This document shows positions 5,160 to 55,087 of a stretch of 64,000 nt of DNA, in pieces. Origin of the DNA: Listeria ivanovii subsp. ivanovii. Lineage in GTDB: Bacteria > Bacillota > Bacilli > Lactobacillales > Listeriaceae. A model generated the notes under the pieces. It was given only the letters and a program-made list of their open reading frames with translations. It ran no database searches and was not told the DNA's origin. The position numbers were made by a program, and so were the translations under genes. Location of the stretch: positions 232,001-296,000 of the forward strand of contig NZ_LT906478.1 of NCBI RefSeq assembly GCF_900187025.1. The letters are read 5' to 3'. Every line of letters starts with the position of its first letter. The first letter of the stretch is position 1.

Positions 5160-6533
5160 ATGGCTAAGGCAAAAAGGACGACCAAATTTGTATGTCAGGC
5201 ATGTGGATATGAATCGCCAAAATGGATGGGGAAATGTCCGAATTGCAACGAGTGGAATCAAATGGTGGAGGCGCTAGAACCATCTAAGAAATCACGCTCA
5301 GCTTTTAATCATACTGGGGAAGCGGCAAAAGCAACTCCGATTACGCAGATTGCCAGCGAAGAAGAGGCTCGAGTAGAGACACGTATGCCTGAGTTAAATC
5401 GTGTACTTGGTGGTGGAGTTGTCCCAGGATCTATGGTACTAGTTGGTGGGGATCCAGGTATTGGTAAATCAACACTTTTACTTCAAGTATCAGCACAACT
5501 AACGCTGACAAATAAAAAAGTACTGTATATTTCTGGGGAGGAATCAATCAAACAAACAAAACTTCGAGCTGAGCGATTGCAAGTTTCAGGAGATAATTTA
5601 TATGTTTACGCGGAAACGAATTTAGAAGCAGTGCAAGAAACGATTGATTTTGTGAAACCAGATTTTGTTGTAATTGACTCTATTCAAACAGTGTATCATC
5701 CAGATGTCACCAGTGCTGCTGGAAGCGTATCTCAAGTTCGTGAATGTACGGCGGCTTTAATGCGAATCGCTAAAATGCAAAATATCGCTATTTTTATAGT
5801 AGGGCATGTAACAAAAGAAGGCGCAATTGCAGGACCACGTTTACTTGAACACATGGTAGATACGGTGCTCTATTTTGAGGGAGAGCGCCACCATGCTTAC
5901 CGAATTTTGCGTGCTGTGAAGAACCGTTTTGGATCAACGAATGAAATTGGTATTTTTGAAATGCGTGATGTAGGTCTTGTTGAAGTTGCCAATCCATCGG
6001 AAGTCTTCCTAGAAGAACGTTTAGAAGGAGCATCAGGTTCAACGGTAGTTGCATCTATGGAAGGAACACGCCCAGTACTTGTCGAAATTCAAGCCCTTGT
6101 TTCACCAACCATGTTTGGAAATGCAAAACGAATGGCAACGGGAATTGATTATAATAAAGTATCATTGATAATGGCTGTTTTGGAAAAGAGAGTAGGATTA
6201 ATGCTACAAAATCAAGACGCTTATCTGAAAGCAGCAGGTGGAGTGAAATTGGACGAACCGGCTGTAGATTTAGCTGTGGCTGTAAGTGTAGCATCAAGTT
6301 ACCGAGATAAACCGACTAAAAGTACTGATTGCTTTATCGGCGAACTAGGTTTAACTGGAGAAATTCGTCGAGTGGCAAGAATTGAACAACGCGTACAAGA
6401 GGCGGCAAAACTTGGATTCAAACGAATTTTCATTCCGAAAAATAATGAAGGTACTTGGAAAATACCAAAAGATGTGCAAGTGGTTGGAGTAGAAACAATT
6501 GGGGAAGCTTTGAAGAAGGCATTGCCAGACTGA
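5160..6533 (+). CDS. radA: DNA repair protein RadA
   Basis: This 457-residue protein has the three RadA parts: an N-terminal C4 zinc finger (CQACG and CPNC, residues 11-28), a RecA-like ATPase with Walker [11 protein letters not shown] near residue 96 and the RadA-specific KNRFG motif near 254, and a C-terminal Lon-like domain. RadA promotes branch migration of recombination intermediates. ATG 5160 is favoured by the GGAGGGG sequence upstream; the upstream in-frame start at 5115 has none. A candidate promoter (TTAACG at 5102, TAAAAT at 5126) lies in the gap after the clpC terminator. Confidence 0.96.
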
Positions 6534-6566
6534 AAATAAATACTTGAGAGATTCCGTGAGTACTAT

Positions 6567-6596
6567 TTGCGGTATCGTCTTTTAATAGTGTAGAAT
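6567..6596 (+). promoter_or_regulatory. Candidate promoter upstream of the PIN-TRAM gene
   Basis: TTGCGG (6567) and TAGAAT (6591) are separated by 18 bp, within the 133-base gap between radA and the next gene. Confidence 0.5.
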
Positions 6597-6666
6597 AGTG
6601 CTATATGTATATTTGATAATAGCTCAAATATGCCTATAAATATAAAAACGGAGAGGGGGAAACTAA

Positions 6667-7740
<1,074 letters not shown>

Positions 7741-9979: not shown

Positions 9980-9982
9980 TAC

Positions 9983-10025
9983 ACCCCCCTTGTAACAAAG
10001 GTATTATCTATGTTGCGAGGGGGGT
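9983..10025 (+). terminator. Inverted repeat after gltX
   Basis: ACCCCCCT (9983-9990) and AGGGGGGT (10018-10025) form a strong 8-bp stem directly after the gltX stop. It is not followed by a long T run, so termination is plausible but not certain. It marks the left border of the accessory cluster. Confidence 0.55.
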
Positions 10026-10058
10026 TGCATTTCATGAATTTATAAAGTAGATAGTTTG

Positions 10059-10103
10059 AAAATGACGCAATGTCTTGAGTTTGTGAGAAAGAGAATATAT
10101 ACT
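10059..10103 (+). promoter_or_regulatory. Promoter of the DeoR-type regulator, with an operator-like motif
   Basis: TTGAGT (10075-10080) and TATACT (10098-10103) are spaced by 17 bp. The motif AAAATGAC at 10059-10066 lies 16 bases upstream of the -35, a similar position to the identical core near the epimerase promoter. This suggests autoregulation by the DeoR protein (inference). Confidence 0.6.
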
Positions 10104-10200
10104 AAGATGAGCGAATGAATCGTAAATTAAATTTAGAGAGTCCTTGATTATTTAAATCGGCATATTTTAAGTGTAATCAATTATAAGGTAGGGGGAAATA

Positions 10201-10962
10201 GTGTTGCTAGCTAAGGAACGATTACTATATATATTAAAAAGGCTACATGATCAACCATCGATATCGGTAACTGACTTGTGTAAAGAATTGGGTGTATCAA
10301 AATCCACTATCCAACGGGATCTTAAAGCGCTTGAGCAAGATGGAAAGGTCGATCGAGCGAGAGGTGGAGCTATCCAAAAAAACTTTGATGAAACGATGAG
10401 TGATCTTACAGAGGTACCTGTTTTAGATAAGTTAGGTGTTCATATTAAAGAAAAACAGGCTGTGTGTAAGGAAGCTGCCAAAATGATTAATGATGGAGAT
10501 TTAGTTTTTTTAGATTCGGGAACAACACCTGTCCAACTGTTGCCCTATTTACAAAATAAAAGAATTAAAGTTGTAACTAATAGTTTTTTTCTTTTATCGC
10601 GTTTATCTATTCCAAATGGAAGTATTTATATGCTGGGGGGGGCTTATAATCCTAAATACGAAACATGCTATGGACCAAGTACTATAGAGCAAATCAAAGA
10701 ATTTAGATTTGATAAAGTTTTTATTGGTGCGAATGGTGTAGACCTAGATTTAGGTGAGGTTTATGCTAGTGAATTTGAAGTTGGAGCTTTAAAGAAGGCT
10801 GTAATGGAAAGAGGCAAGCACTCGTATTTATTAGTTGATCATTCTAAATTTTCTTTAACAGGCATAAGTACTTTTGGTTATTTAAACCAATTTGACAAAA
10901 TATTTGTGGATGATTTTCCTACTGATAAGAAGAATTATAAAAATATAGTGATTTCTAAATAA
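10201..10962 (+). CDS. DeoR/GlpR-family transcriptional regulator
   Basis: The 253-residue protein has a DeoR-type HTH at residues 6-57 (VTDLCKELGVSKSTIQRDL) and a C-terminal sugar-phosphate-sensing domain with the family motif FLDSGTT near residue 102. Such regulators respond to phosphorylated sugars. The GTG at 10201 follows a GGGGG ribosome site closely; the next codon, TTG at 10204, is an alternative start. It reads toward the convergent activase pseudogene and shares a bidirectional terminator with it. Its location and the repeat motifs near both its own and the epimerase promoter suggest that it controls the PTS-radical enzyme cluster. The frame is intact. Confidence 0.88.
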   Translation: MLLAKERLLYILKRLHDQPSISVTDLCKELGVSKSTIQRDLKALEQDGKVDRARGGAIQKNFDETMSDLTEVPVLDKLGVHIKEKQAVCKEAAKMINDGDLVFLDSGTTPVQLLPYLQNKRIKVVTNSFFLLSRLSIPNGSIYMLGGAYNPKYETCYGPSTIEQIKEFRFDKVFIGANGVDLDLGEVYASEFEVGALKKAVMERGKHSYLLVDHSKFSLTGISTFGYLNQFDKIFVDDFPTDKKNYKNIVISK

Positions 10963-10966
10963 AGAG

Positions 10967-11003
10967 GATGGAAAGGTGGATATAGCCTTTCCATCTTTTT
11001 TTA
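10967..11003. terminator. Bidirectional terminator between the DeoR gene and the activase
   Basis: GATGGAAAGG (10967-10976) pairs with CCTTTCCATC (10986-10995) and is followed by T7. It lies between two convergent genes. The reconstructed activase stop codon sits in its right flank. Confidence 0.85.
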
Positions 11004-11789
11004 GGCGATTTCGCAATGGATTCCATGTGAAATAAATATTTTTTTTGTGCAGAAGCAGGTCCGTGGTGCTTAATTGTGGTGTGGTTGTAAACTCATATTT
11101 TCTGCCAAGGAATTTATACTTACTCTTGCCAAATTGGTGAAAAGGGAGTAATTCTACTGCTTGGATATTAAGGGAGCTTAGTAATAGGGCAAATTGTTCT
11201 GAGTCAGCAAGAGAATCATTGTATCCAGGGATAATCGGTATTCGTAAGAGCATATCTTTATCTGAAAGACTTGCTAACTTAAGATTTTCAATTATTGGTT
11301 CTAACTTTACACCTGTTTTATCCCTGTGTTTTTCGCTGTTGTAATGTTTGATATCCATTATGAGTAGGTCAACGTTTTCTAATAATAACAGAAATTTTTC
11401 TTTGGAGGAGTATGCAGAAGTTTCACAAGCTGTGTGTATTCCATTTTCCTTGCACTTTTTTAGGAATTTAATGACAAAAGGTAACTGAGCTAAAACTTCG
11501 CCACCAGTTACAGTGACCCCGCCGCCTGATTCTGCGTAATAATCGATGTCTTTTAGGACTTCTGACATTATCTCGTCTACTGTAAGATAATCTCCAGTGA
11601 GTATATTCTTCTTTTTGATATTGTCCCACATCCATGCTGGTAAACGCTTTTGGGACTCGGGATTAGAACACCATGTACATTGTAAGGGGCAGCCTTTAAA
11701 AAAATGGTTGTTCTAATACCGGGACCATCATGAATACTAAAACGTTGAATGTTAAAGACACAGCCTTTTGTATCTACTATTTTAATCAC
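11001..11789 (-). pseudogene. Glycyl radical enzyme activase (radical SAM), two frameshifts
   Basis: When both shifts are repaired this is a GRE-activating enzyme of about 262 residues. The N-terminal frame has the activase signature SIHDGPGIRTT. The radical SAM cluster motif CPLQCTWC appears only in the -1 frame, after the point where the first frame runs into an unrelated tail. The central part includes VTVTGGE and LLRIPIIPGYND. A second shift lies in an A8 run (11039-11046): removing one A restores the usual end KIFISHGIHCEIA and a stop at 11001. The first break coincides with U UUU UUA in the zero frame (11697-11703). Mutation, sequencing error or recoding are possible; decay is most likely because the partner GRE is also broken. 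A canonical intact activase would donate the radical to the GRE at 13.0-15.3 kb. Confidence 0.85.
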
Positions 11790-11853
11790 GCCTTTCTATG
11801 TGTATTTATAACTTAAACTAAGTATAACTGTAAAATTTAATAAAATAAAGTTC

Positions 11854-11883
11854 AAAATGACTTAATTTGATTTAAAATGATTT
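11854..11883. repeat. Three 10-bp phased direct repeats, left set
   Basis: Units begin at 11854 (AAAATGACT), 11864 (AATTTGATT) and 11874 (AAAATGATT), each with a following T, one helical turn apart. They lie in the 464-base divergent region between the activase and the epimerase. They resemble operator repeats of DeoR-type regulators (inference). Confidence 0.65.
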
Positions 11884-12051
11884 ATTTGGGTAATAATTAA
11901 GTTTTTTGAATGGTGAGGGTTAGTTTGAAAATTGATAAATCCTTATTAAATATGGCTTTTTGTAAAATATTACTTATTTTAAATTCTTTTTCAAATAAAT
12001 TATAGTTAGTTATTTGAAGCAAGGACATCCGTTTTTTGGATTTTTTGACAC

Positions 12052-12081
12052 AGAATGATTTAAAATGACTAAAAAAGACTT
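12052..12081. repeat. Three 10-bp phased direct repeats, right set
   Basis: Units begin at 12052 (AGAATGATT), 12062 (AAAATGACT) and 12072 (AAAAAGACT), again at a 10-base period with the same consensus as the left set. They abut the -35 of the epimerase promoter. Confidence 0.65.
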
Positions 12082-12109
12082 GAAAAGGTTTTTTCGAAGG
12101 TGATATACT
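12080..12109 (+). promoter_or_regulatory. Promoter of the epimerase-GRE-PTS operon
   Basis: TTGAAA (12080) and TATACT (12104) have an 18-bp spacer. The -35 overlaps the last phased repeat. The expected leader to the epimerase start is about 140 bases; no riboswitch was recognised in it. Confidence 0.65.
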
Positions 12110-12253
12110 GAACAAGAAATGTGAAAGGGTATTCATAATTCGTTTTAATCATATTAACACGCGTTTTTTGAGTTAAGAATGTAAGGTTATATTCGCTTGG
12201 ATTTAGTGAAAAATGAAATTCATTAAGAAAAATTACTCAAAGGAGAGAAACGT

Positions 12254-13003
12254 ATGAAAACAAGTAATCAAAAAAATAAAGCTTTATTAGAATCGTTGAA
12301 AGGTGGTTTGGTTGTTTCTTGTCAAACGCAAAAGGATGAACCAATTTATACGGATGATATGGTAGTGAAAATGGCTGAGTCAGCTAAGTGGGCTGGCGCA
12401 GTAGGTATTAGAGCAAACTCGCCTGAACAAATTCGGTTAATTAAAGAAAAAGTAGATTTGCCGATTATTGGTCTTTGGAAAATTTGGAATGATGATACGG
12501 ATGTTTTTATTACTCCGACATTACAATCGTGTAAAGACATCTGGGAGGCTGGAGCGGATATTATCGCTTTAGACTGCACTGGTCAAATAACTCATGAAGG
12601 GACCGTTGCTTGGGATTTGCTACCGATAGTGAAGCGTGAAATTCCAGATGCACCAATTTTTGCAGATATATCGAATTATGATGAGGCGAGACGAGCGATT
12701 GATAATGGGGCAGATATCGTTGCACCAACTTTGTATGGATACACAAAAGAAACAAAACATATTGAAGAACCGGATTTTAGAGAATTTGCCCGAATGTGCC
12801 GCGATTTTAAAGATGAGGCCTATGTAATGATGGAAGGACACATCTATTCGCCGGAAGATGCAATGAAAGTATTATATCTAGGGGCACACTCAGTAGTTGT
12901 AGGGAGTGCGATTACTAGACCTCACTATATTGCTAAAAGATTTGTTGATTTGTTGGGAGGTTATCAAGACAATTGGCGAGATGCTGAAAGGAGTAAACAT
13001 TAG
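12254..13003 (+). CDS. NanE-like N-acylmannosamine-6-phosphate 2-epimerase
   Basis: This 249-residue TIM-barrel protein matches NanE, with GLVVSCQ near residue 16, AVGIRAN near residue 50, ITPTLQS, IALDCTG and the C-terminal phosphate-binding VVGSAITRP. NanE interconverts ManNAc-6-phosphate and GlcNAc-6-phosphate at C2. No nanA lyase, nanK kinase or nagA/nagB gene is nearby. Instead it lies two bases upstream of a GRE gene and in one transcription unit with a mannose-class PTS. Its real substrate may therefore be a different 2-substituted hexose-6-phosphate (inference). The ribosome site AAAGGAGAG is strong and the frame is intact. Confidence 0.82.
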   Translation: MKTSNQKNKALLESLKGGLVVSCQTQKDEPIYTDDMVVKMAESAKWAGAVGIRANSPEQIRLIKEKVDLPIIGLWKIWNDDTDVFITPTLQSCKDIWEAGADIIALDCTGQITHEGTVAWDLLPIVKREIPDAPIFADISNYDEARRAIDNGADIVAPTLYGYTKETKHIEEPDFREFARMCRDFKDEAYVMMEGHIYSPEDAMKVLYLGAHSVVVGSAITRPHYIAKRFVDLLGGYQDNWRDAERSKH

Positions 13004-13004
13004 G

Positions 13005-15287
13005 ATGAAAAAAACAAATATTGTCGGTGCTCAAAATGTAGAAGTAAGTATCAAGCTACCAAGTGAAAAAACGCCGCAAGAACAACTAGCGATAATGGAA
13101 GAATATACTCGTGTTCACAAAGAGTCAAAAGGTCTTTCCAAAGAAAAACGAGAAATTAATTGCCTTAAAGTTATTTATCCGACGTTGTTTCGGAGTATTG
13201 AAGAGCAGGACTTATTAGCGGGACGTTTGGATTTTTTGCCAATTGGTTTTGGTTGTGTTACTTCTCTTGGTGGAGTAGGACATTATTGTGTGTTTGATAA
13301 GCTGTTGAAATTTCGTGAAGAGCTTTCTTTGGTTGAAGATCAAAAACGCGTTGATGAGATGTATTCATACTGGGAAGAGAATGATGTCAAAGCGCTTTAT
13401 TGTAAAGATGTACTAACGGAAGATACAGTAGGCCGTTTTATTGATTGCGATTTCCCTCTGATGGCGACAGCTAGACTAAGTGGGATGATGCTTGATTATC
13501 CTAAGCTTTTAGATAATGGCATTGAAGGTTTGAAAACACTAATAAAAGAAAAACAAGTTGTATTGGGTGATAACGAATTTTTTACCGCATCCATTGAATC
13601 GTTGGAACTTTATCAACAGGTCGTAGATTTTGAAAGGGAATTAGTTCAAAAGGCAATGCTTCAAGTTTCACCAGAACGTCGAAAACAATTAGAAATGATG
13701 GATAATGATTTAGAAGTTGTTCGTAGTCAAAAACCTAGAACCTTTCATCAAGCGTTACAAATGGTCTAGCTATATGCTTTGCTTGCTGGATGTATAAACT
13801 ACGGTAGATTAGACGATTATCTTGGACCATATTTGAAAAACGACTTAGATAATGGTGTTATTACTGAAGAAGATGCATTTGATTATCTGAAATCTCTTTG
13901 GAATTTAATTGAAAATCGGAGAACTACAGTTAATGGCCGAATTATTGTGGGGGGATATGGAAGGAAACACCCGGAAGCGGCAGATATTTTTGCGAAAATT
14001 GCGATGAAAGTAACGCAAAAATGTAATTATGTAGAGCCGCAATTTACGTTAAGGTTCAATAAGGAAACATCAGAAGAAATCATGGATATGGCATATGACT
14101 GTATTGGCAGTGGCGCAACATACCCTACACTTTATAATGATGAGGTGAACGTGCCAGCTGTTATGTATGCAATGCGAGTGGATCGAGAAGCAGCAGAGCA
14201 ATATGTGCCGTTCGGATGTGGAGAATTTGTAATTCAAGGACAGAGTGTAGGTACCCCGAATACTTTGCTTAATCTAGTGAAGCTGTTGAATATCACATTG
14301 AATAACGGGATAGACCCGATAGATGGTGTGAAAAAGTCTGGTCCTGTTCAAATAAAAGATAATAGTGAGTTTCATACTTTTGATGATTTGTATAATAATT
14401 ATAAAGAATTACTAGATTACTATTTTGATCTCTCGGTGGATGCGCAATATTATAGTTATGAACTTATGAATCAAGAAGTTTCATTTCTGTTTGCTAGTAT
14501 TCTGATGGATGATTGTATTAGTAAAGGGAGCGCTATTCTAGATGGAGGTATTAGGTATCTTGGTGGAACGAATGAAACTTACGGAAATATAAATACAAGT
14601 GATACCCTTACAGCGATTAAAAGCTTGGTTTATGAGCAGCGGAAATATACTTTAGCTGAATTAAATGAAGCGGCACTTAAGGATTTTGCGGGGTATGAGA
14701 AAATACGTGAGGATTTGTGGAGTCAAGGTAAATATGGTAATGACCTTAAAGATGTCGATGAATTAGCCAATGATTTTTATGAATATGTCGCAAAAGGGAT
14801 TAGAGATAGAGGTATTGAGAAAGGAATGGATTATTATCTAATTGTTATTAGTAATAATCAAACAAATACGGAATGGGGACGAAGAACTTCTGCTTCTTTA
14901 GATGGACGTTATTCGGGAAGGTTTATGAATCCAGCTAATAATCCTCAAGGTGGGGCTGCTACGAGCGGACCAACAGCTGTATTGAATTCACTGTCTACCT
15001 TTGATGCTAAGTATCATGGAGGGGCAGTTCAAAATATTAAATTTACCCCTAATATGTTTAATAAAAATAGACAGCAAATTAAATATTTATTTAACACTTA
15101 CTTCAAAAGAGGTGGTTGTCATTTAATGGTGACAATTGTTGATCATGGGGGTTTGGAAGATGCGCAAAAACATCCAGAGAAATATCCTAATTTAATAGTG
15201 AGAGTCAGCGGTTTTAGCGCAGTGTTTGTTAACTTGGATAAAGATGTTCAAGATGAGTTGCTTAGTCGAACGTTATATGATGAATAG
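13005..15287 (+). pseudogene. Glycyl radical enzyme (eliminase type) interrupted by an in-frame amber codon
   Basis: Ignoring one TAG (13767-13769, codon 255), the frame encodes a 760-residue GRE. The C-terminal glycyl radical motif RVSGFSA places the radical glycine near residue 736. The thiyl cysteine is in PFGCGE (Cys405). The C-x-E arrangement is that of dehydratase/lyase-type GREs and differs from the Cys-Cys pair of pyruvate formate-lyase. The interrupted site reads QMV-stop-LYALLAG where relatives have a tryptophan, so TGG to TAG is the simplest change. As it stands, translation would yield 254 residues without an active site. Codon structure downstream remains good, so the lesion appears recent. 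The substrate is unknown; the PTS context suggests a phosphorylated sugar or polyol. Confidence 0.88.
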
Positions 15288-15304
15288 ATAACTTTAACAA
15301 AAAA

Positions 15305-15318
15305 TGAAAGCGCTATAA
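15305..15318 (+). promoter_or_regulatory. cre-like site and possible internal promoter before the PTS genes
   Basis: TGAAAGCGCTATAA matches the CcpA cre consensus TGWAARCGNTWNCW at 13 of 14 positions and includes the AGCGCT core. It overlaps a TATAAT-like element in the gap between the GRE and PTS IIB. Catabolite repression is inferred. Confidence 0.6.
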
Positions 15319-15341
15319 TTTCAACATCAGGAGGAAAAGAA

Positions 15342-15797
15342 ATGTTTATTAGAGTAGATGACAGATTAGTACACGGGCAAGTAGTTACGGCGTGGATTAA
15401 ACAACTTAACGCCAAAAAGATTTTTGTTGTAGATGATTTAGCAGCTAGTAACCCAATTATTTCAAAAGCACTAATTATGGCGACCCCGAAACATGTGGAA
15501 TTAGTTATTAAAAGTGTAGAAGATGCAAAAACGAGTATTTCTGAATTAAATGAAGAGCAAACGATGCTTATTACAAAAGCTCCAGTAAATGTTAATGCTT
15601 TAATTGAAGCGAATGATAGCTTTAATTGGACGATAAACGTTGGAAATATTGGGATGGCTAAAGGGCGCGAAAAATTTGCGCAAACGGTACATTTAGATGA
15701 GGAAAATCTTGCGGCAATTAATAACTTAAAAACAAAGAATAATGTCGAAATATTTATGCAAACTGTACCAGGACAATCGATAAATAAATTTGACTAA
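15342..15797 (+). CDS. PTS mannose-family IIB component
   Basis: The 151-residue protein has the mannose-family IIB N-terminus FIRVDDRLVHGQV, in which the histidine near residue 11 is the expected phosphorylation site. It would accept phosphate from IIA and pass it to sugar moving through the IIC-IID channel. The AGGAGG ribosome site lies upstream, and IIC follows 18 bases later. It is intact, unlike the upstream radical enzyme. Confidence 0.92.
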   Translation: MFIRVDDRLVHGQVVTAWIKQLNAKKIFVVDDLAASNPIISKALIMATPKHVELVIKSVEDAKTSISELNEEQTMLITKAPVNVNALIEANDSFNWTINVGNIGMAKGREKFAQTVHLDEENLAAINNLKTKNNVEIFMQTVPGQSINKFD

Positions 15798-15815
15798 GCA
15801 TCTAGGAGGAAAACT

Positions 15816-16586
15816 ATGACGTTAATACAAGCAATTTTAATAGCCTTATTTGCATATTTAGGATGGATTGCCAGTCCGTGGTTAGGTGGACAAGGTATTT
15901 CATATCATGTTTTTGGAAAACCACTTGTTGCGGGACTGATAGTTGGTATCATAATGGGGGATGTAACTAATGGTGTAATAATTGGGGCGACTATCAATGC
16001 TTTATATGTTGGTGCAGTTACTCCTGGTGGGGCGATGTCATCAGATATCACTTTTGCTGGGTATGTAGGGACAGCATTAGCGTTATCTACTGGTGTTACC
16101 GCAGATATGGCAGTATCTATAGCAGTTCCGTTAGGGCTGATAGGGACATTTGTGTGGCAATTATTCGCAACTATTAATTCTGTGTTAGTTCATAAAACAG
16201 ATGAATACGCTGCGCAAGGTAATGTGGCAAAACTGACATTTATGACAATAGGTTTGCCTCAAATAATTGCATTTGTTTTAAGATTCTTCCCGGCGTTTTT
16301 AGTACTTTATTTTGGGGCTTCAGCTGCTTCAGAAATTGTTCAATATATTCCAGATTGGTTAACTAATATTATTACTGTAATTGGTGGTATGTTACCAGCG
16401 TTAGGTATGGCTGTTCTTCTTAAGATGTTATTAACTACAAGATCTTTGATGGGATATTTTATTGTTGGTTTTATAGCGGTAACAGCATTAAAGCTTCCAA
16501 TTTTTACGATTGCAGTTATTGGAGCTGCCTTAGCAATGATTAGTTTCCTTAATAAACCAAAAGGAGAGTATGCAGATGTCGACTAA
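15816..16586 (+). CDS. PTS mannose-family IIC component
   Basis: This 256-residue hydrophobic protein has multiple membrane segments and family features such as LVAGLIVGIIMGDVTNG near residue 33 and AVTPGGAMSSDI. It forms the sugar channel together with IID. The end overlaps the IID start region, which indicates coupled translation. Length is normal for the family. The transported sugar cannot be read from the sequence. Confidence 0.92.
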   Translation: MTLIQAILIALFAYLGWIASPWLGGQGISYHVFGKPLVAGLIVGIIMGDVTNGVIIGATINALYVGAVTPGGAMSSDITFAGYVGTALALSTGVTADMAVSIAVPLGLIGTFVWQLFATINSVLVHKTDEYAAQGNVAKLTFMTIGLPQIIAFVLRFFPAFLVLYFGASAASEIVQYIPDWLTNIITVIGGMLPALGMAVLLKMLLTTRSLMGYFIVGFIAVTALKLPIFTIAVIGAALAMISFLNKPKGEYADVD

Positions 16587-17406
16587 AACAAAAGAAGTTG
16601 AGGTAACTAAAAGAGATATATATAAAGTTGGTCTTAGGTGGTTGATGTCTAATACATCTGCTTGGAATTGGGAGCGAATGCAAAATGTAGCATTTGCTTG
16701 GAGTATGGTCCCTGTTTTGAAAAAAGTGACCGATGGAAGTAAGGAAGAAATGGGTGAAGCTTTAACCAGACATATGAACTTTTTTAATACAGAGCCAACG
16801 ATTGGAGCGCCGCTGGTAGGATCTGTTGCGGCTATGGAAGTTTCGAAAGCAAATGGAGAAGATATTCCAGATGATGTCTTTAATGCAATTAAATCTGGGC
16901 TAATGGGACCAATGGCGGCTTTAGGAGATTCCCTTTTTGCGAGTACAGGGAATGCCTTATTGTTGAGCTTTGGAATGGGGTTAGCGTTAGATGGTAATGT
17001 TTTAGGACCGATTATTTTTTTAGTCGGTTGGACGGCAATCACACTTGGTTTTTCTATGTGGGGCGTTCAATTTGGTTTCCGTGAAGGAATGAAAATTATG
17101 GATTCAGCTATTTTTTCTTCTGCTATGATCCAAAAAGTAACAGCCTTCTTATCTATTTTAGGTTTAACGGTTGTTGGCGGATTATCGGCCCAGTTCGTTT
17201 CTCTATCAACATCTATCTCGTGGACTAGTGGAGAAAGTACGACGAAACTTCAAGAAATACTAGATGGTTTGATGCCGGGATTATTACCTTTTATATTGGT
17301 TTTGGTTGTTTGGTATTTACATGATAAGAAAAGTGTTTCTGTGATGAAATTATTAGTTATCCTAATTGGTGTAGGAACAATGGGATCACTTTTACACATA
17401 TTTTAA
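16576..17406 (+). CDS. PTS mannose-family IID component
   Basis: This is a IID subunit of about 276 residues. It has the family motif WNWERMQNVAFAW near residue 33, a PTIGAPLVGSVAAME segment, the GLMGPMAALGDSL loop, and membrane helices at the C-terminus. An alternative ATG at 16570 lies only 5 bases after AAAGGAG; 16576 has more usual spacing. The gene overlaps the IIC 3' end by 11 bases. The subunit is complete, so the transporter may remain functional even though the radical pathway genes are broken. Confidence 0.92.
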   Translation: MSTKTKEVEVTKRDIYKVGLRWLMSNTSAWNWERMQNVAFAWSMVPVLKKVTDGSKEEMGEALTRHMNFFNTEPTIGAPLVGSVAAMEVSKANGEDIPDDVFNAIKSGLMGPMAALGDSLFASTGNALLLSFGMGLALDGNVLGPIIFLVGWTAITLGFSMWGVQFGFREGMKIMDSAIFSSAMIQKVTAFLSILGLTVVGGLSAQFVSLSTSISWTSGESTTKLQEILDGLMPGLLPFILVLVVWYLHDKKSVSVMKLLVILIGVGTMGSLLHIF

Positions 17407-17418
17407 TGGAGGTTTTGT

Positions 17419-17835
17419 ATGGAGAATAACATGAGTAACATCATAGTGATGACGCATGGTGAGTTTGCGGAAGGTATTGTTAAATCCGCAGAAATGATAA
17501 TTGGCGAGCAAAAAAATTTGAAATCTGTCACATTTCACCCGGAGATGTGTTTGGATAGTTTGGTTTTAGAATTTAAAACTAAAATTAAAGAGTTTAATAA
17601 TGATTACCCGTGCTTGATTTTTGTGGATTTATTTGGAGGATCACCATCCAACGCAGTGGCGATACTTTTAGCAGAAAAATACGATATTCAAGCAATTGCC
17701 GGAGTTAATTTACCAATGCTTCTAGAGGTTTTGGGAGGAAGGACGATTTTTCCGATTGATATTTTAGTCAAACAGGCTGAAATGGCAGGAACAGAAGGTG
17801 TAGTAAACATTGTTAAACGTTTTTTAGAAGATTAA
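17419..17835 (+). CDS. PTS mannose-family IIA component
   Basis: The 138-residue IIA domain has the phosphorylated histidine in the N-terminal MTHGEFAEG motif (near residue 13) and the DLFGGSPSN segment typical of the family. It is a single-domain IIA rather than a IIAB fusion. It ends the cluster and is followed by a terminator. The gene order epimerase-GRE-IIB-IIC-IID-IIA suggests one operon. Confidence 0.92.
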   Translation: MENNMSNIIVMTHGEFAEGIVKSAEMIIGEQKNLKSVTFHPEMCLDSLVLEFKTKIKEFNNDYPCLIFVDLFGGSPSNAVAILLAEKYDIQAIAGVNLPMLLEVLGGRTIFPIDILVKQAEMAGTEGVVNIVKRFLED

Positions 17836-17880
17836 ATATCGCTTTTCATAGAAGTAAGTTTTTGGTATCTAAAAAATAAT

Positions 17881-17915
17881 GATGGCGCTTCGTTCGCGAG
17901 GCGCTTTGTTATTTT
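17881..17915 (+). terminator. Terminator after PTS IIA
   Basis: GCGCTTCG (17885) pairs with CGAGGCGC (17897) around a TTCG loop and is followed by a T-rich stretch. It marks the right border of the accessory cluster. Confidence 0.75.
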
Positions 17916-17961: not shown

Positions 17962-18216
17962 AAATATATGGAAAAAGTGCTGATAGGAAGAAGTACGGAA
18001 TTTTAAGCTTGTAGAGAGAGTCGCCATGGCTGGGAGCGACTTAGCTGAACGCTCCCGAAATGCCTCCTTGAATTCTGGTGGGAATTTTAGTATCACCAGA
18101 CGAAATGTGGGTCGTTACCCCCGCCCCTAGAGTTGGAGTATCTGCCAGAAATTTGGCAGAACTCAAGTCAGAGTGGAACCGCGCAAAGCGTCTCTGTAGT
18201 AGAGGGGCTTTTTTTG
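17962..18216 (+). ncRNA. T-box leader (cysteine specific) upstream of cysE
   Basis: The invariant T-box sequence AGAGTGGAACCGCG is at 18170-18183 and is followed by a terminator hairpin with a T7 run. A long stem I precedes it, with TGC (18061-18063, Cys codon) in a position consistent with the specifier. Uncharged tRNA-Cys would stabilise the antiterminator and switch on cysE and cysS. The same leader location is known from Bacillus, where cysE follows gltX. Confidence 0.9.
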
Positions 18217-54668: not shown

Positions 54669-54722
54669 AGAAAAAGCGAATTTCCAGATGCGCTTTTTCT
54701 ACGGATTCCTACATGTTATAAT
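54669..54722 (+). promoter_or_regulatory. Inverted repeat and extended -10 promoter of the Hol-Tox gene
   Basis: A perfect 10-bp inverted repeat (AGAAAAAGCG at 54669, CGCTTTTTCT at 54691) precedes TGTTATAATA, in which TATAAT (54717-54722) has an extended TGn. Transcription would begin near 54729. Confidence 0.6.
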
Positions 54723-54822
54723 AATTAGGCAAACAAGTTTATGGTGGTGTGCCAGCCTTCTTCATCAGAAAGTAGGTGGTGCTTATGTTATTTTTGGAGC
54801 GTTGCCTGGAAAGGATAAACGT

Positions 54823-54909
54823 GTGACTGTTTTCGAGAGTCTTACGCTTATGATTGCTTTTGCAGTCTTAATCGTAACAATCATGAACAGTAAAGATGAC
54901 AAAAAATAA
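54823..54909 (+). CDS. Small hydrophobic peptide of the Hol-Tox (holin-like toxin) type
   Basis: A 28-residue peptide begins TVFESLTLMIAFAVLIVTI and ends in a charged NSKDDKK tail. The pattern (short VFE start, one membrane span, lysine-rich end) is that of putative holin-like toxins, a type I toxin class of Firmicutes. The GTG start at 54823 has AAAGGA seven bases upstream. The longer frame from 54688 begins before the promoter and is rejected. The transcript would have a leader of about 95 bases and end at a strong terminator. A convergent antisense RNA is predicted. Confidence 0.75.
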   Translation: MTVFESLTLMIAFAVLIVTIMNSKDDKK

Positions 54910-55030
54910 AAACCACTCATAAGCTTGAGCGGCTAAAAATGAGTGGTTTTTAATCTCATATAAGGCTGTCACCATCTTAAATGGTGTTTGCACTGTAAGG
55001 GAGTCATGTTGACGCATGGCTCTCTTTTCA
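54905..55030 (-). ncRNA. Predicted antisense antitoxin RNA overlapping the Hol-Tox terminator
   Basis: On the minus strand TTGTGA (55060-55065) and TATTAT (55037-55042) are spaced by exactly 17 bp. Transcription from there would run toward the toxin gene and could end in the same symmetrical hairpin (54908-54951), overlapping the toxin mRNA 3' end. This geometry is that of known type I pairs such as txpA/RatA. An internal hairpin lies at 54999-55026. The RNA itself is inferred. Confidence 0.55.
54908..54953. terminator. Bidirectional terminator of the toxin and antisense units
   Basis: AAAAACCACTCAT (54908) pairs perfectly with ATGAGTGGTTTTT (54939); A and T tracts on both arms allow use from either strand. 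Confidence 0.85.
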
Positions 55031-55087
55031 TGTTTTATAATAACATATTTAAGCATTGTTCACAATAAATCTAACTAAGATAAAGTA

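Follow-up and report, generated by a model that had tools for sequence, protein, structure and literature searches.

A decayed gene cluster of Listeria ivanovii that pairs a separate clade of glycyl radical enzymes with a NanE-like epimerase, possibly for anaerobic phosphosugar degradation

Introduction

Between gltX and the T-box/cysE region of Listeria ivanovii subsp. ivanovii lies a gene set of about 7.9 kb coding for a DeoR regulator, a glycyl radical enzyme (GRE) activase, a NanE-like epimerase, a GRE and a four-subunit mannose-class phosphotransferase system (PTS), and the question that it raises is what such a combination could act on. The stretch of DNA analysed (the window) comprises 64,000 nucleotides of assembly GCF_900187025.1 (NZ_LT906478.1, positions 232,001 to 296,000, forward strand), from a genome that is a single contig of 2.92 Mb; positions given below are those of the window unless a locus is named. 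A preliminary description of the window had named these genes, their order and their place, and all three were confirmed by domain matches. The cluster is real, uncharacterised in the sources searched, broken in the window and intact in relatives. We regard it as an evenly balanced proposition that the window holds a decayed version of a gene module for the anaerobic breakdown of phosphosugars. Few GRE families have known substrates, and several of the new ones have brought to light unsuspected anaerobic routes, such as those for choline, hydroxyproline, isethionate and anhydrohexitols.

Epimerase and GRE as a conserved pair

The open epimerase gene (12254..13003, plus strand) matched both the Pfam and the NCBIfam model of the NanE family above cut-off (PF04131, 161 bits; NF002231, 239.9 bits against a cut-off of 189). 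The GRE gene (13005..15287, plus strand) follows at a distance of 1 nt in both Listeria copies; PF02901 and PF01228 were found on its pieces, and it has the thiyl cysteine and the C-terminal radical glycine of the superfamily, in a Cys-Gly-Glu (C-x-E) motif at 14217-14225 and a glycyl motif RVSGFS at 15201-15218, both on the plus strand. Searched with the GRE and the epimerase, the cluster occurred in 2 of 25 Listeria genomes, that of the window and that of L. immobilis. The order and phylum searches covered samples of genomes: in the order of the window's genome the GRE clade was found in the same two genomes of 395 (at E 1e-70), two further matches at 32% identity being YbiW-type in the tree, and in its phylum in 1 of 299 (at E 1e-90), the window's own. 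An order taken to be Bacteroidales gave 3 of 393 genomes and the phylum Bacteroidota 7 of 395. In a plasmid collection 144 records matched and, among the 30 listed, two were members, from Parabacteroides distasonis (65%) and Persicobacter (39%); the former record carries dnaG, ftsH and nusB and is probably chromosomal. A scan of viral contigs gave one pattern match and no relative.

The family holding the P. distasonis-like genome carried the GRE in 11 of 123 genomes, and the epimerase search returned the identical 11, with no other NanE at E 1e-40 or better. Under random draws this agreement has a chance of 6.5e-16, although the genomes are related and the true surprise is thus smaller. The gene order in P. 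distasonis is ROK kinase, epimerase, GRE and activase; the first three kept this order in all ten loci fetched from the family, one of which (L057) lies on a contig ending inside the GRE, and the activase came next in the other nine. The eleventh genome (G1143) was left out of the loci, since there the two genes are on different contigs, with the GRE starting at an edge. The best model for the ROK protein was a glucokinase family (248 bits, just under the cut-off of 260). Also beside the loci of this family (L019:17914-24251 and L048-L056) were an AraC regulator and a set of DUF1080, two Gfo/Idh/MocA and one TIM-barrel gene, the AraC gene being no more than about 6 kb away in 8 of the 9 activase-containing loci; the DUF1080/Gfo/Idh/MocA/TIM-barrel set resembles what we take to be the 3-keto-glycoside systems of Bacteroides.

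The GREs of Listeria and P. distasonis share 65% identity and the epimerases 77% by tblastn (75% in the locus comparison), whereas the best ordinary NanE among the matches listed (25 of 406 records; 28 matches) reached 45% to the GRE-linked epimerase, which indicates that epimerase and GRE diverged together. An excerpt of PMC6453916 places the network edge separating characterised GRE functions at about 60% identity, so that the Listeria and Parabacteroides GREs, at 65%, are probably isofunctional. Their occurrence in both groups is best explained by horizontal transfer. It had been expected that both the epimerase and the PTS would accompany the GRE elsewhere: the epimerase did, in the same 11 of 123 genomes, but only the two Listeria genomes had the PTS next to the pair. 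The Parabacteroides loci have the ROK kinase instead, which Listeria has not, and the PTS was rejected as a constant part of the unit after comparison of the Parabacteroides-family loci and those of the sister clade s2 described below.

Decay and selection

The amber stop noted earlier in the GRE is present as a single in-frame TAG (13767-13769), but it is not the sole lesion, the activase being broken too. In the latter (11001..11789, minus strand; a short type without the 8-cysteine ferredoxin-like insert, assigned by domain and profile matches and by its intact L. immobilis orthologue) the frame changes just ahead of the CxxxCxxC motif and again near the C-terminus. A non-standard reading of the GRE stop was rejected on account of this second broken gene and of the L. 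immobilis copy, which has no stop. At the same site in L. immobilis all cluster genes are intact and colinear, so the search for intact copies in other genomes was answered within the genus; the activase orthologue there has 262 aa (6237-7025 of the fetched locus L006).

Between the window and L. immobilis the ratio of nonsynonymous to synonymous substitution rates (dN/dS) was 0.02-0.11 for each of nine cluster genes or pieces, a comparison that left out the short N-terminal piece of the activase. The highest values were those of the activase (0.11) and the N-terminal GRE piece (0.09); three flanking genes gave 0.04-0.06, and the synonymous rate (dS) was 0.66-1.2 in the cluster against 0.60-0.69 for gltX, cysE and cysS. 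Each cluster gene or piece compared is under purifying selection, and the intact colinear copy together with these ratios excludes a chance gene set. Our reading is that the insert is older than the separation of the window species from L. immobilis, was under selection and decayed lately, or else that the lesions are sequencing errors.

A separate clade of GREs

The clade set consisted of 21 sequences, ten of subclade s1 (L. immobilis and the Parabacteroides family) and eleven of subclade s2 (other Bacteroidota), the broken window copy being left out. In the tree, s1 and s2 formed one clade apart from the YbiW, PflD, glycerol dehydratase, HypD and CutC types, with support of 99-100 on the s1, s2 and clade branches and of 100/100 on the branch separating the clade; this tree has a long stem and a small outgroup set, from which rows for benzylsuccinate synthase (BSS), HPAD, IslA and propanediol dehydratase were left out. 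Identity to YbiW, PflD, HypD and CutC was 24-26%. The intact L. immobilis GRE scored 218-282 bits against the cut-offs of 1000-1150 of seven NCBIfam equivalog models (HypD, CutC, HpsG, HpfG, HPAD, IAD and PRK09983), about one fifth to one quarter of these cut-offs, and the P. distasonis copy was also scored against equivalog models; HPAD, IAD, HpsG and HpfG are excluded by the profile scores alone. The best match in the PDB, among 36 sequences at E 0.001, was glycerol dehydratase (1r8w) with 243 bits, too low for a clade member, while chains of benzylsuccinate synthase, propanediol dehydratase and IslA stayed below 200 bits by phmmer and outside the tree. Assignment of the GRE to YbiW/PflD, HypD, CutC or glycerol dehydratase was rejected on these identities, scores and branches, and the view that it lies outside the characterised families withstood the comparison for those examined here.

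Thiyl Cys405, Glu407 and radical Gly736 were invariant in all 21 members, so the C-x-E seen as CGE in the window holds throughout the clade. Directly after the radical glycine every clade member (21 of 21) has Phe, against Tyr in the other 16 GRE rows. Thirteen further polar residues were invariant in the clade and absent from five reference rows (YbiW, PflD, E. gilvus, HypD and CutC); the five of them that were checked (Arg74, Arg312, Glu524, His671 and Gln676) were absent also from all 16 other rows. Position 310, presumably in the pocket, is Asn in s1, Asp or His in s2, Tyr in YbiW, Gly in PflD and Phe in HypD and CutC. Glycerol dehydratase shares the superfamily and the C-x-E, but its His164, His281 and Asp447, whose pocket role and numbering we assume, align with a gap, Gly and Asn of the cluster GRE.

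The two subclades share about 40% GRE identity. As an excerpt of PMC11528403 puts 40-50% below the level separating most GRE functions, this suggests that s2 would have a function other than that of s1. The s2 loci (Persicobacter, Bacteroidales and other Bacteroidota) hold an SSF symporter, GH130 and sulfatase among their sugar genes. Counted as protein clusters, one representative of each being named, the neighbours in 11 loci were GH92 and AraC (7 each), aldo/keto reductase (6), nucleoside-hydrolase-like, solute-binding, SMP-30 and MocA proteins (5 each) and GH130 (4). A PhyH-type dioxygenase was found by cluster in 3 of the 11 and by annotation in Persicobacter too (L020:13227-13982, L076:1468-2226, L078:6852-7610 and L079:19258-19686); that PhyH and GRE make an aerobic and an anaerobic attack on the same stable bond is a guess on our part. 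Two of seven s2 matches were listed with one internal stop (L069 and L072), and the open reading frames from the same places had none; the stops are probably terminal ones.

The epimerase pocket

Twelve GRE-linked epimerases were aligned with seven ordinary NanE proteins, N-acetylmannosamine-6-phosphate 2-epimerases, to which they are 32-42% identical (Staphylococcus aureus numbering). The six active-site residues that an excerpt of PMC8482478 gives for the S. aureus enzyme (Gln11, Arg40, Lys63, Asp124, Glu180 and Arg208) are kept in 12 of 12, and so are Gly181 and Gly203 of the phosphate anchor, Phe at 72 and Tyr149, which according to the same excerpt meets the acetamide methyl. The NanE signature reported there, X-P-X-I-G-I-X-K-Z with a basic Z, is replaced by G-L-W-K-I in all twelve: residue 64, after the catalytic lysine, is basic in 6 of 7 ordinary NanE proteins, non-basic in the remaining one, and Ile in the GRE-linked branch (Arg64 to Ile). 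Further changes found in 12 of 12 are Ala179 to Met, Thr144 to Pro, Met122 to Phe and, by alignment, Arg100 to Asn or Thr, and these epimerases also have a conserved C-terminal extension. With the catalytic residues kept and pocket residues changed, the chemistry, inversion of C2 of an open-chain aldose 6-phosphate, has likely been retained, and the substrate has likely been altered.

A second, ordinary NanE, 43% identical to the GRE-linked one, is encoded elsewhere in the window's genome (C1:2873487-2874167). Scavenging of sialic acid or N-acetylmannosamine was considered as a reading of the cluster; the genome also has that ordinary enzyme.

Proposed pathway and its alternatives

We propose that a sugar 6-phosphate would be supplied by the mannose-class PTS in Listeria, or by an uptake system and the ROK kinase in the Parabacteroides relatives, and that the GRE-linked NanE branch would then invert C2 of its open-chain aldose form by deprotonation and reprotonation. 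The radical S-adenosylmethionine (SAM) activase would generate the glycyl radical of the GRE and through it the thiyl radical, which would abstract a hydrogen from the sugar; with the C-x-E glutamate as base, the neighbouring carbon-heteroatom group would be expelled. The likeliest leaving group would be the C2 substituent of an amino-sugar-like 6-phosphate, since inversion at C2 would turn it axial. The product may pass into central metabolism by way of housekeeping enzymes, given that the Listeria loci hold no linked gene for a further step. Gene set, co-occurrence, clade and conserved residues are observed; the order of the steps, the bond broken and the substrate are our inference. A 6-phosphate is pointed to by the PTS or ROK kinase that feeds the unit and by Gly181 and Gly203; thus the earlier idea of a PTS-delivered sugar 6-phosphate gained on the phosphosugar side, where the ROK kinase stands in for the PTS, and lost on the PTS side, which is confined to Listeria. 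The gene order kinase, epimerase and GRE matches the proposed reaction order and lends it slight weight. Heyns products (glucoselysine-type) and other C2-amino compounds were considered as conceivable substrates.

In its most specific form the proposal is of the first radical lyase working with a 2-epimerase, which would take the substituent (an amine, an amide or a hydroxyl) off C2 of a hexose 6-phosphate inverted at that carbon, in an active site without the eliminase His/Asp, would be common to gut Bacteroidota and Listeria and would have a functionally different s2 branch; taken as a whole, this version is unlikely and is offered tentatively. In the open-licence PubMed Central (PMC) literature no paper was found that links a GRE with N-acetylmannosamine-6-phosphate, or a GRE with a PTS and Listeria, and none among the matches listed concerned this cluster; PMC7798349 was set aside as a possible link, the excerpt concerning other genes.

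Several observations weigh against the proposal. None of the 21 clade members has the His or Asp that follows G-x-[AG] in the compared eliminases: YbiW has GDAH, PflD GQGH, HypD GPGH, CutC GGGD and pyruvate formate-lyase (PFL) GRGR, and the position is His, Asp or Arg in all 16 other GRE rows, while the clade has R-[LM]-x-G throughout with none of these residues after it (a gap in the alignment, or Gly if aligned without the gap). This is the position of His164 in glycerol dehydratase and of Asp216 in CutC, which we take to contact the substrate, and the term eliminase, given earlier from C-x-E alone, could therefore be wrong. Arg157 of R-[LM]-x-G is not clade-specific, HypD-type rows having Arg too, and a structure model (AlphaFold, 9 sequences) was too poor to use, with a mean predicted local distance difference test score of 48. 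As for the remaining two of the four phosphate-anchoring positions of the epimerase, residue 204 is Ser, which 3 of 7 ordinary proteins also have, and residue 182 is His in 12 of 12, where ordinary NanE has Asn, Lys or Arg. No NanE or ROK family member was found in the 11 s2 loci, so the clade as a whole is not epimerase-dependent. Finally, N-acetylglucosamine 6-phosphate (GlcNAc-6-P) and N-acetylmannosamine 6-phosphate (ManNAc-6-P) could be degraded without a GRE, so that an amino sugar would qualify as substrate only if it were of an uncommon kind.

The steps could also run the other way. From an unusual derivative imported by the PTS, the GRE would first release an N-acylmannosamine 6-phosphate, which the epimerase would convert to the GlcNAc 6-phosphate form for presumed housekeeping NagA/NagB. 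Retention of Tyr149, the contact of the acetamide methyl (PMC8482478, excerpt), and of Phe72 in all twelve epimerases would suit this sequence of events, and so would the lack of a linked downstream enzyme in Listeria, which is compatible with a housekeeping end point. Four replacements common to all twelve epimerases (Ile for Arg64, His for Asn182, Met for Ala179 and Pro for Thr144) argue instead for a changed substrate. Moreover, no GRE is known to us that would form an aldehyde at C1 and leave the amide at C2 in place, and we regard this reversed order as unlikely.

The preliminary description had mentioned GREs that act on phosphorylated anhydrohexitols, and a new branch of these lyases, opening the ring of a 1,5-anhydro sugar 6-phosphate by C-O cleavage with the epimerase serving a side product, would be another alternative. 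The E. coli 1,5-anhydroglucitol and 1,5-anhydromannitol 6-phosphate lyases YbiW and PflD are the only phosphosugar GREs that we found, reported in an excerpt of PMC12441222 that cites Ma et al.; they are likewise C-x-E enzymes with their own activase and a PTS-supplied phosphosugar, acting anaerobically, and the Listeria activase shares 54% identity with the activase next to a YbiW-type GRE in Enterococcus gilvus. Against closeness to them stand the 24-26% identity, the separate clade at 100/100 and the missing His after G-x-[AG]. The gene surroundings differ as well: in E. coli ybiW adjoins fsaA and pflD is found with frw PTS genes, whereas the cluster GRE is accompanied by a NanE-like protein and by either a mannose-class PTS or a ROK kinase. 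The L. immobilis cluster has no linked gene for an aldolase or a GldA-type enzyme, and an anhydrohexitol pathway could not use the epimerase, since a NanE-type enzyme needs a C1 carbonyl, which anhydrohexitols do not have. We consider this alternative improbable.

A similarly low probability attaches to the GRE being no eliminase at all but a C-C lyase or decarboxylase whose substrate, an anionic sugar or a sugar acid, would be bound through arginines specific to the clade. It would agree with the loss, in 21 of 21, of the residue corresponding to the His of YbiW, PflD and HypD and to the Asp of CutC, and with Arg74 and Arg312, invariant in the clade and absent from the 16 other rows; in the isethionate sulfite-lyase IseG/IslA, a GRE that also has a catalytic glutamate, arginines bind the sulfonate (PMC6453916, excerpt). 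However, the C-x-E glutamate is invariant in the clade, while the row of pyruvate formate-lyase, a C-C lyase, has Cys-Cys and no such glutamate, and Arg157 is shared with the HypD-type rows. The cluster GRE reached 145.8 bits to the IslA chain 7kq3, which is outside the tree, and no sulfonate gene was seen among the named genes of the s1 loci.

That the epimerase and the GRE lie side by side through shared descent and transfer, and do not work together, would fit the horizontal transfer between Listeria and Parabacteroides, the relatedness of the 11 Parabacteroides-family genomes and the epimerase-free s2 loci, but it is very improbable given the identical presence and absence over 123 genomes, the parallel divergence, the 1 nt gap in both Listeria copies and the fact that activase and transport module changed while the pair did not.

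Accessory genes, regulation and insertion site

The intact L. immobilis activase matched the GRE activase family TIGR02494 with 282.8 bits (cut-off 174.35), and the CxxxCxxC motif marks it as a radical SAM protein, though the gene is broken in the window. It is 54% identical to the activase found with a DeoR gene and a YbiW-type GRE in E. gilvus, E. raffinosus being alike, and 33% identical to that of P. distasonis; judged by cysteine positions in the L. immobilis orthologue, the second cysteine cluster of the P. distasonis activase is not in the Listeria one. This suggests that the activase partner was exchanged during or after transfer, though an unseen intermediate lineage could also explain it. 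In E. gilvus and E. raffinosus the GRE gene lies on a large plasmid, together with genes for DeoR, a short activase, GNAT and VOC proteins; it is the E. gilvus GRE that the tree places as YbiW-type.

The PTS genes, all four of them open, follow the GRE on the plus strand: IIB of the mannose/sorbose class (15342..15797, PF03830), IIC (15816..16586, PF03609, 239 bits), IID (16570..17406, PF03613, 295 bits) and IIA (17419..17835, PF03610). All four domains of a mannose-class system are thus present; the histidines of RLVHGQ in IIB (15363-15380) and of VMTHGEF in IIA (17446-17466) are presumably the phosphorylation sites, and none of the subunits reached the cut-off of a single-sugar NCBIfam equivalog. 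The open DeoR/GlpR-type regulator gene (10201..10962, plus strand) matched PF00455 (147 bits) and PF08220, with a dN/dS of 0.03 against L. immobilis. In the divergent spacer between activase and epimerase, blocks are conserved with L. immobilis, one of them, upstream of the epimerase, being a candidate nanE promoter TTGAAA-18-TATACT with AAATGAYT repeats (12054..12115, plus strand, from this alignment and a scan). A DeoR operator in the spacer is plausible from these repeats, although the AAATGAYT motif was not above chance in the window or the L. immobilis locus, and the promoter-like sites of the scan were not above shuffles. A cre-like site at 15304-15319 upstream of IIB belongs to a pattern without excess in the window (15 found against 14.6 expected).

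A blastn comparison of L. monocytogenes DNA with the window showed homology ending at 9980 and restarting at 17893, which sets the insert at about 9981..17892; L. monocytogenes has 23 bp in its place. Over 7.7 kb the flanks are about 88-89% identical in DNA to L. innocua and L. monocytogenes, and the T-box (Rfam match), described earlier as a cysteine T-box, lies at 17971-18198. The hairpins said to bound the cluster correspond to an inverted repeat at the left edge (9983-10025) and a terminator-like stem found by the scan at the right edge (17884..17905, plus strand), but as a class the terminator-like sites of the region were not above shuffles (4 against 4.5). No integrase or transposase was found among the ten insert proteins or pieces scanned, the smaller open reading frames lying outside that scan. 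In L. innocua the stretch from gltX to epsC/cysE (NZ_CP095725.1:46689-50457) has an IS3 transposase inside it, and the gltX-cysE site may be a recurrent insertion point. Elsewhere, Rfam matched the Listeria small RNAs rli24 and rli28 in the window, and a RatA-type antitoxin RNA match on the minus strand (54.7 bits, gathering 49) stands beside rli28 (54947-55040 and 54707-54893).

Significance

What distinguishes this system is that its GRE belongs to a deep, separate clade, has an altered pocket and comes with a constant partner of known chemistry. Through this partner the range of substrates is reduced to aldose 6-phosphates, and the question becomes accessible to experiment. In Listeria, moreover, the GRE is 65% identical to its orthologue, but the activase that goes with it only 33%. 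The GRE and the epimerase of the cluster occur in P. distasonis, a commensal of the human gut, and taken together the data suggest an undescribed anaerobic route of sugar breakdown.

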